From positions 1,798,001 through 1,862,000 of the forward strand of contig NZ_AP027079.1 of NCBI RefSeq assembly GCF_030295385.1: 64,000 bases of DNA. Reading direction: 5' to 3'. A program made the position numbers and the translations under genes. The DNA comes from Geothrix oryzae. Lineage in GTDB: Bacteria > Acidobacteriota > Holophagae > Holophagales > Holophagaceae. Numbering within the stretch: the stretch's first letter is position 1; the number at the start of each line of letters is the position of its first letter. Under the pieces are notes generated by a model. That model saw only the letters and a program-made list of their open reading frames with translations. It was not told where the DNA came from and did not search any database. This document shows positions 48,468 through 50,976 of this stretch, in pieces.

Positions 48468-48624
48468 GCCAAGCCTCCGGTGCGATAATAGTGATAAGCG
48501 CCGCCCCGTTTCCACGGTGGAGCCCTCCTGGACATGGACGACCGTCACGGTCCCAGTCGTGCTGGTCTTCAGCTCGTTCTGCATCCTCTTGGTATCGCCT
48601 TTGGCGATACGCAAGGCCTCCCCC
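48468..48624 (-). repeat. 157-bp tandem repeat, distal decayed copy of the biotin-carrier gene 3' end
   Basis: Second extra copy of the last 38 codons of the adjacent biotin-carrier gene plus a spacer. The frame still reads MQNELKTSTTGTVTVVHVQEG and then shifts after VETG, so it is a decayed fragment. The spacer (about 48586-48624) is identical to that of the nearer copy and contains the hairpin GTATCGCC-TTT-GGCGATAC at 48592-48610. The biotin-accepting Lys is not included. Confidence 0.85.
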
Positions 48625-48781
48625 TCAGGCTTCGGGCGCCACGACGGTGATGAGCGCAGCTCCCGTCTCCACGGTGCCGCCCTCCTGGACATGGACGACC
48701 GTCACGATCCCGGTGGTGCTGGTCTTCAGCTCGTTCTGCATCCTCTTGGTATCGCCTTTGGCGATACGCAAGGCCTCCCCC
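48625..48781 (-). repeat. 157-bp tandem repeat, proximal intact copy of the biotin-carrier gene 3' end
   Basis: First extra copy, directly downstream of the real gene. It differs from the real 3' end at only about 3 of 119 bases and retains an intact 38-codon frame from MQNEL to VVAPEA with its own TGA. The copy begins immediately after the codon for the biotinylated Lys (MEAMK-M). The spacer hairpin GTATCGCC-TTT-GGCGATAC is at 48749-48767. The 157-bp period is not a multiple of 3, so it does not extend the carrier protein. Confidence 0.88.
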
Positions 48782-49306
48782 TTAGGCTTCGGGTGCCACG
48801 ACGGTGATGAGCGCAGCTCCCGTCTCCACGGTGGCGCCCTCCTGGACATGGACGACCGTCACGATCCCGGTGGTGCTGGTCTTCAGCTCGTTCTGCATCT
48901 TCATGGCCTCCATGACGAGGAGGGTCTGGCCCTCCTGAACGGAGTCGCCGACCTTCGCGAGCAATTTCACGATCTTGCCGGGCATGGGCGAAGACAGCAC
49001 GCCGCCCCCGGCCCCGGCGCCGCCGGAACCCGCAAGGAGGGCCCGGCGGGGGTCCACCAGGGCGAATTCGTAGGGGCCATCGTAGAGCATGGCCCGGTAG
49101 GCGTGGGTGTCGGGATCCGGCGACTTGGCCGGGTCCAGGCGCACCTCCACCGAGCGGCCTTCCATGAGGATCGAATAGCAGCCGGGTTCCAGTTCCAGGA
49201 TATCGATGGGATGGCTCACGCCCTCCCAGACCAGCGTCGTCGCGCCGTCCTGGCGGATGAGTTCCACCTCATGGGATTCCTTGCCGAGGATCAGGGTCCG
49301 TTTCAC
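48782..49306 (-). CDS. Biotin carboxyl carrier subunit of an acyl-CoA carboxylase
   Basis: 174 residues. The C-terminal biotinyl domain (about 103-174) has SSPMPGKIVKLL and the biotin-accepting Lys136 in VMEAMKMQNE. The N-terminal ~90 residues (VKRTLILGKESHEVEL...) resemble the linker/BT region of propionyl- or methylcrotonyl-CoA carboxylase alpha subunits, here split off as a separate protein. I chose GTG 49306, with GGGAG six bases upstream and 10 bases after the carboxylase stop. Two partial copies of its 3' end follow it. Confidence 0.88.
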   Translation of the reverse strand: MKRTLILGKESHEVELIRQDGATTLVWEGVSHPIDILELEPGCYSILMEGRSVEVRLDPAKSPDPDTHAYRAMLYDGPYEFALVDPRRALLAGSGGAGAGGGVLSSPMPGKIVKLLAKVGDSVQEGQTLLVMEAMKMQNELKTSTTGIVTVVHVQEGATVETGAALITVVAPEA

Positions 49307-49316
49307 GCGCGTCTCC

Positions 49317-50810
49317 CTACAACCGGTTGAACCGGCCCCAGTGCTTCCAGGCATCGGGTCTCCCCTCGCCCCCGGCGGACGGCTGGGTGGCCCGTCGCTG
49401 TTCGGTTTCGAGTTCGTGCAGCAGCGCCGCCGCCACCGCGAACTTCAGGTCGGGCCCCTGCCCCTTCCGCTTCCAGAAGGGTTTGTCGAGCATGCCCGTG
49501 TGCAGGGCGCCTTCACGGAAGGGCTCGTGCTCCATCAGCGCCTCGTGGAAGGCGATGTTGTGGCGGATGCCGCCGATGCGGTACTCGCCCAGGGCCGCGC
49601 GCATGCGCTCGATGGCCTCCAGTCGCGTGGGCCCCCAGGTGCTGAGTTTGCTGATCATGGGGTCGTAGAACATGGGCACTTCGGCCCCTTCGTAGACGCC
49701 GCCGTCATCGCGTACATTGCGTCCGCTGGGCGTGCGCAGGAAGGTGATCTTCCCGGGGCTCGGCATGAAGTTCTTGTCGGGGTCCTCGGCGTAGACGCGG
49801 CACTCCATGGCCCAGCCGTTGAGGGGGATCTCCTCCTGGGTCATGGGCAGCTTCTCGCCGCGGGCCACGAGGATCTGCCACTTCACCAGGTCCAGGCCCG
49901 TGATCCACTCCGTGACGGGATGCTCCACCTGGAGGCGGGTGTTCATCTCCAGGAAGTAGAAGTTGCGGTCCGCGTCCGCCAGGAACTCCACGGTGCCCGC
50001 GCCCACATAGTTCACGGCCCGGGCCACCTTGAGGGCGGCTTCCCCCATGGCCTTGCGCATCTCCGGCGTCACATGGGGGCTCGGGGCCTCCTCGATCACC
50101 TTCTGATGGCGGCGCTGCACGGAGCACTCGCGCTCATGCAGATAGACATGGTTGCCGTGGGTATCGGAGAAGATCTGGATCTCGATGTGGCGCGGCTGGA
50201 CGATGGCCTTCTCCACATAGACGCTGTCGTCGCCAAAGCTGGACAGCGCCTCGCCGCGCGCCCGCGCCAGCGAGGAGGTGAACTCCTCGGGCTTGAGCAC
50301 CAGGCGCATGCCCTTGCCGCCCCCGCCCATGGCGGCCTTGAGCATCACGGGGAAGCCGATCTTCTGGGAGGCGACCAGCAGCTCATCGTCGGCCATGGTC
50401 TCCTGAATGCCCGGCACCACGGGGCAACCTGCGGCGATGGCCACCTCACGGGCGGCGGTCTTCGATCCCATGCTCACGATGCATTCGGGACGGGGCCCGA
50501 TGAAGGTGATGCCCGCGGCCTCGAAAGCCCTGGCGGCTTCAGCGTTCTCTGAGAGGAAGCCGTAGCCCGGATGCACCGCGTCGGCGCCGCTGCGCTTGCA
50601 GACATCCAGGATCTTCTCCAGCACCAGGTAGCTCTCCCGGGCCGCCGCGGGACCGATGAAGTAGGCCTCATCCGCCATGCGCACATGCAGGGCGCCGCGG
50701 TCGGCCTCGGAATAGACGGCCACCGTGGGGATGCCCATCTCGCGGCAGGTGCGGATCACGCGGATCGCAATCTCCCCGCGGTTCGCAATCAGGATCTTGG
50801 TCACGGACAT
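49317..50810 (-). CDS. Biotin carboxylase subunit of an acyl-CoA carboxylase
   Basis: 497 residues, ATP-grasp enzyme that carboxylates biotin using bicarbonate and ATP. Seen: KILIANRGEIAIRVIRTCREMG, the glycine-rich AAMGGGGKGMRLV, the catalytic EMNTRLQVEHPVTEWITG, and HRRHQKVIEEAPSP. About 50 residues longer than AccC and followed by a stand-alone carrier, it resembles the split alpha subunit of propionyl/acetyl-CoA carboxylases. No carboxyltransferase gene is adjacent. AGGTGAG precedes ATG 50810 and overlaps the stop of an upstream small frame. Confidence 0.92.
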   Translation of the reverse strand: MSVTKILIANRGEIAIRVIRTCREMGIPTVAVYSEADRGALHVRMADEAYFIGPAAARESYLVLEKILDVCKRSGADAVHPGYGFLSENAEAARAFEAAGITFIGPRPECIVSMGSKTAAREVAIAAGCPVVPGIQETMADDELLVASQKIGFPVMLKAAMGGGGKGMRLVLKPEEFTSSLARARGEALSSFGDDSVYVEKAIVQPRHIEIQIFSDTHGNHVYLHERECSVQRRHQKVIEEAPSPHVTPEMRKAMGEAALKVARAVNYVGAGTVEFLADADRNFYFLEMNTRLQVEHPVTEWITGLDLVKWQILVARGEKLPMTQEEIPLNGWAMECRVYAEDPDKNFMPSPGKITFLRTPSGRNVRDDGGVYEGAEVPMFYDPMISKLSTWGPTRLEAIERMRAALGEYRIGGIRHNIAFHEALMEHEPFREGALHTGMLDKPFWKRKGQGPDLKFAVAAALLHELETEQRRATQPSAGGEGRPDAWKHWGRFNRL

Positions 50811-50814
50811 GGGC

Positions 50815-50955
50815 TCACCTTTGCTCAATGGTGCTCGATCGCTGGCCTGCGCGGGGACCTGACCCCGATCGCTTCGCTCCCGCTCCCTCGCTGCGCTCGA
50901 TCACAGAGGGGTCATCATCCCCCCGATTGGCAACGAGGATCTTGGTCACGGTCAT
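50815..50955 (-). pseudogene. 46-codon upstream frame starting like the biotin carboxylase
   Basis: Begins MTVTKILVANRG, matching MSVTKILIANRG of the carboxylase at 10 of 12 residues, with mostly third-base differences at DNA level. It then diverges into DDDPSVIERSEGAG... and stops at TGA 50815-50817, four bases before the carboxylase ATG. GAGGT lies upstream of its ATG. Either a remnant of a duplicated or paralogous carboxylase start, or a functioning leader peptide coupled to translation of the carboxylase. Confidence 0.6.
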
Positions 50956-50976
50956 GGTTGGACCTCGGAATCGGGC

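Follow-up and report, generated by a model that had tools for sequence, protein, structure and literature searches.

A hairpin element of the Holophagaceae associated with duplicated gene termini and a triple biotin-carrier gene end in Geothrix oryzae

In a 64,000-nucleotide stretch of the Geothrix oryzae genome (the window), the end of a minus-strand biotin-carrier gene occurs three times in register. We found that the copies are separated by a short hairpin element that is dispersed through the genus and its relatives, and that at about 24 independent loci the layout is the same, with a gene terminus (A), the hairpin, and a second terminus (A'). We lean toward the reading of a miniature palindromic element that inserts site-specifically and thereby duplicates ~66 or 119 bp of its target.

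A repeat search of the window gave a period of exactly 157 bp for the three gene ends, and TRF reported a tandem repeat at 48491-48906 (period 157, score 741), in agreement with the original prediction. The gene itself (48782..49354, minus strand) would encode a biotin carboxyl carrier protein of 190 aa, counted from the first ATG; because this ORF overlaps the neighboring biotin carboxylase subunit gene (49317-50828), translation may in fact begin closer to 49309. The protein matches NCBIfam PRK05641 with an E-value of 3.6e-25, which is under the curated cut-off of that family, so the assignment is at the family level only.

The duplicated unit at this locus is the last 117 nt of the gene. 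Its target site on the minus strand, AAGATG (48896..48901), spans the biotin-Lys codon and the one after it, and the duplication begins after the first A, within the Lys codon. As had been predicted, each gene-end copy starts just past that codon: its first letters, ATGCAG, follow the AAG that encodes the biotin-accepting Lys of EAMKM. Reading along the minus strand, the gene's own 3' end (A1, ATGCAG...TAA, 48782..48898) is followed by a first hairpin element (48742..48781, core 48744-48773), which is composed of GGGGGAGG, the 30-nt hairpin, and GG; by a first downstream copy of the gene end (A2, 48625..48741); by a second, identical hairpin element (48585..48624, core 48587-48616); and by a distal, decayed gene end (A3, 48468..48584). 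A1 and A2 are 98% identical over 110 nt, close to the earlier estimate of about 3 differences in 119, and A2 keeps an open frame, ending in TGA. A3 matches at 93% across its first ~82 nt and decays beyond, again as proposed, and its downstream flank aligns to the native sequence that follows the gene in the element-free relative G017. The 40-nt spacer, GGGGGAGG-CCTTGcGTATCGCCAAAGGCGATACCAAGA-GG, had been described as preceding every copy; it lies 5' of the second and third copies and is absent before the gene's own end.

An assembly artefact was ruled out, given that the genome is a single contig of 3.27 Mb and that 14 other genomes of the genus have the gene end, the hairpin, and a second end at this locus. 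The three-copy state was seen in the window genome only. We conclude that the array most likely began as one hairpin insertion, common to the 14 other genomes, and that a further 157-bp unit was later added to this two-copy arrangement, giving the additional hairpin and the third gene end that are particular to this genome. The suggestion of a recent tandem expansion holds for the last step, from two to three gene ends. It fails for the origin, because the boundary of the duplication is a hairpin common to unrelated loci and native sites do not have the hairpin.

The window hairpin, CCTTG-c-GTATCGCC-AAA-GGCGATAC-CAAGA, has a stem of 12-13 bp with one bulged C and is longer than first described. 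The element as a whole is ~38-40 bp, with the general form xGGGAGG followed by TCTCGcGTATCGCC-NNN-GGCGATACCGAGA. A search for the hairpin pattern, as the original prediction had proposed, matched all 47 Geothrix genomes at 1 to 20 copies per genome, and the reversed pattern, used as a control, had no match in the same 47. Across the order, the hairpin is present in 59 of 77 genomes and in 8 of 11 genera, the named relatives being Geothrix species and other Holophagaceae. Among 98 distinct versions, the stem covaries (pair 11-19, GC 75 and CG 19; pair 12-18, CG 66 and GC 28; pair 3-26, CG 87 and TA 10), and 86 have no stop codon in any of the six frames, compared to 16% of shuffled sequences. 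The base directly before the hairpin is G at all 24 loci and position -4 is G at 21, with a variable middle (GAGG, GCGG, GATG, and others). As regards the alternating orientation typical of BIME/REPIN clusters, the arrays seen are mostly head-to-tail, with an inverted pair in L181. An Rfam search of the hairpin yielded chance-level matches, none above the gathering score.

We scored a context as duplicated when at least 15 of the 20 bases directly after the hairpin matched sequence 36-279 bp upstream. By this measure, 31 of 60 non-redundant contexts are duplicated, compared to 15 of 448 control positions. The period is 102-108 bp in 24 of the 31, where 0.9 would be expected if periods were uniform; the remaining periods are 155, 157, 159, 170, 215, 69, and 42 bp, a minority class thus lying at 155-178 bp. 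Duplication begins at A^ARANG, within coding sequence, and over the 24 independent loci the motif is strict (A in 24 at -1, R in 23 at +1, A in 21 at +2, and G in 22 at +4). At all 24, the gene body lies 5' of the hairpin, which leaves the gene whole in front of the element. Two further patterns were considered and set aside: periods in multiples of a 10.5-bp helical turn, which 69, 170, and 215 do not fit, and conservation of the codon phase of the cut, which is accounted for by high third-position GC.

Both gene ends and gene starts are affected, some of the names of the flanking genes coming from translation alone. The ends are those of the biotin carrier, rpsT with its terminator, nadB, efp, a sucB-type E2, and nuoJ; the starts are those of polA, uppS, manC, an rdgB-like gene, and an amino-acid permease. 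At about half of the loci the element is at a gene start, in antisense orientation, and at rpsT it is found past the intrinsic terminator. Given these positions, the proposal of a modified 3' UTR finds no positive support. The hairpin is also found inside ORFs and inside other repeats. Two loci have fresh copies. At an RqcH-like locus in G032, 97% identity over a 73-nt copy extends as far as the hairpin, and native flank follows the copy; at the nadB end in L234 the copy is 73/73 identical and is followed by 9 nt of hairpin. A partial hairpin after the distal copy was likewise seen in L008 (21 nt) and in L012. The window genome has the same architecture at two other sites, an RqcH-like gene end (C1:297385) and an amino-acid permease gene start (C1:1933901).

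Where orthologues were available, native sites without the element have neither hairpin nor duplication. At the permease locus, the element is in the window genome, G007, and G017 only, and ~27 relatives are single-copy. At the biotin locus, comparison of a filled site (L011) with an empty one (L028) gives a 38-bp insert and a 119-bp duplication. Of 30 genomes compared there, 15 have A-hairpin-A', 3 have hairpins in altered surroundings, and the rest are without an intact hairpin; filled and empty genomes are interleaved. For G017, which is closely related to the window genome, the simplest explanation of the empty site is deletion between the repeats. In 11 of the 15 filled genomes, A and A' are sisters within one genome, and identity is higher within a genome (0.916) than between genomes (0.858 for A, 0.802 for A'), indicating that the copies have been homogenised or re-made. 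At the manC start of G005, a single-copy site resembles a hybrid of A and A', the product that deletion through repeat recombination would give.

From these comparisons between species, we infer an enzyme-driven insertion with a long target duplication. An enzyme would cut the two strands ~66 or 119 nt apart, or would replicatively copy that segment, so that the target would be duplicated on insertion and the gene left whole before the element. Later recombination between the direct repeats could then expand the array, as in the window strain, homogenise the copies, or delete the element. The array would need no coding or regulatory role and may be selfish or neutral DNA. Several observations sit less easily with insertion. 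A symmetric staggered cut does not predict the one-sided position of the gene body, which counts against this reading, and the partial distal hairpins of L234 and L008 also fit a tandem duplication that took in both gene end and hairpin, with later loss of the last hairpin. Type I copies of the element, described below, show no long duplication, which likewise counts against it, as does the failure to find a mobilising enzyme, the genes for REP transposase and reverse transcriptase being absent from this genome and most relatives.

A second palindrome occurs in the same operon. The start of the accC-like biotin carboxylase gene is duplicated on the minus strand (50773-50812 and 50918-50957; period 145, 85%; whole region 50773..50957), with an unrelated GC-rich palindrome between the copies (50860-50914). 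This duplication is common to many relatives; some genomes have arrays and others are empty, and in G014 and G029 a related palindrome is found at the same carboxylase gene with another duplication start. Since an unrelated palindrome has the same layout, the process may not need one hairpin sequence. It is conceivable, as a tentative reading, that the whole reflects a new insertion process in the Holophagaceae, in which a putative enzyme would place a ~38-bp hairpin at A^ARANG with a ~66- or 119-bp duplication and would also act on an unrelated palindrome.

The strongest competitor, to which we give an appreciable but minor share of belief, is slippage or template switching. Here a hairpin already present downstream would stall or loop the replication fork, the nascent strand would realign at a short purine match (A-RR, like the hairpin tail GAGA-RG), the gene end would be recopied, and the distal hairpin would later be lost. 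This would explain why the duplication always starts immediately 3' of the hairpin, why the junction has a one-base A identity and purines, and why partial distal hairpins and a second, unrelated palindrome with the same layout are found. However, it does not account for the clustering of periods around ~105 bp across unrelated loci, and motif positions +2 and +4 fall outside any match to the hairpin. Furthermore, in the freshest cases (L323, L139, and L011), the distal copy runs straight into native flank with no hairpin, and lone-hairpin intermediates are nearly absent from the biotin and permease loci.

A block of gene end plus hairpin might instead move between species in the manner of homing and replace the corresponding gene end in each recipient, through homologous recombination or a site-specific enzyme. 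The patchy, interleaved distribution of filled and empty sites with the same junction is consistent with this, and in G004 the distal manC A' resembles the native sequence of relatives and A differs by 30%. That divergence is weak evidence, because the N-terminal DNA of manC evolves fast. At many loci with fresh copies, moreover, A is almost identical to its own A', and the copy was therefore made locally, which leaves this account improbable.

Movement as a REP-type element by a RAYT (Y1 HUH) transposase is disfavoured, and we consider it very unlikely, even though a short bulged hairpin with a G-rich, partly conserved tetranucleotide on its 5' side resembles REPs (PMC2817692, PMC8266576). 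Y1_Tnp (PF01797) is present in just 5 of the 47 genus genomes and absent from the window genome, none of its loci is near a hairpin, and the known IS200/IS605 enzymes, relatives of RAYTs, do not make large target duplications (PMC2817692). Equally hard to credit is a functional 3' or 5' regulatory hairpin under selection with an incidental duplicated end; stem covariation and persistence of the hairpin at orthologous positions across many species would suit it, but the range of positions described above and the many close relatives without a hairpin at the same gene do not. Copying by a reverse transcriptase was rejected, with PF00078 (E<=0.001) in 15 of 47 genus genomes only and not in the window genome, and with the rpsT and antisense gene-start sites also against it; a phage-borne element was rejected on the result of 0 exact hairpin matches in IMG/VR viral contigs.

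Among the three original options, that of a mobile spacer capturing a gene end came closest, in that the element is dispersed and tied to terminus duplication at many loci. Like MITEs, it is small, palindromic, mobile, and non-coding and is accompanied by direct duplications of the target; in contrast to the few (2-15) bp of MITEs, its duplication is ~66-119 bp, and at ~38 bp it has no recognised parent transposon, none having been seen near the hairpin copies that were read. It shares with Rickettsia palindromic elements a mostly stop-free palindrome with a few copies in ORFs (L217, L267), but it is shorter and, because the terminus is duplicated, usually outside the ORF. Integrative elements that insert in gene 3' ends and carry a replacement end also keep the gene whole through a duplicated end, whereas the Geothrix insert is ~38 bp with neither integrase nor cargo and is found at gene starts as well. 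With REP/REPIN and RAYT systems it has in common a dispersed, short, bulged hairpin, stem covariation, probable single-strand recognition, and perhaps the 5' G-rich tetranucleotide; it differs in that 42 of 47 genomes lack PF01797, in its 1-20 copies, and in its frequent long, fixed-length target duplication inside coding ends. The RHE/DHE hairpins of fungal and sponge mitochondria (PMC2800124) similarly invade intergenic and coding DNA, by a mechanism that is not known; they belong to another genome and differ in sequence and size, and the text consulted notes no systematic fixed-length duplication of gene ends. In open-licence literature on Geothrix repeats, long target duplications, and small palindromic elements, we found no published description of the hairpin with terminus duplication.

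The way in which small palindromic repeats spread among bacteria is not settled. In this case the footprint is large and measurable: the length of the duplication is near-fixed, its start motif is strict, genes lie on one side only, and dozens of species provide both filled and empty sites. The mechanism is therefore directly testable. Such duplications would give elements a route to occupy the ends of core genes without breaking them (rpsT, polA, uppS, efp, the sucB-type E2, and the biotin carrier), and in genome annotation they give rise to spurious short ORFs and to tandem gene ends.

Other forms of the hairpin were also seen. Type I copies (GATATCnnTTTG-hairpin) have no long duplication. 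In L033, L036, L037, and ~46 related copies, GATATCnnTTTG-hairpin lies within longer repeats whose outer inverted arms vary among copies yet remain complementary; those of L033 have MITE-like terminal inverted repeats of ~20 bp (AGAGGTCGTAACAAAACCC). The same 42-nt form lies within CACCAAG/CACGAAG-type palindromic repeats at CCA^AGG (L051, L111, L184, L202, and similar), likewise without a long duplication, and in L217 and L267 it is in frame within an ORF, adding 14 codons. After an adenosine-deaminase-like gene end (L083), at least five hairpins are spaced 68-71 bp apart.
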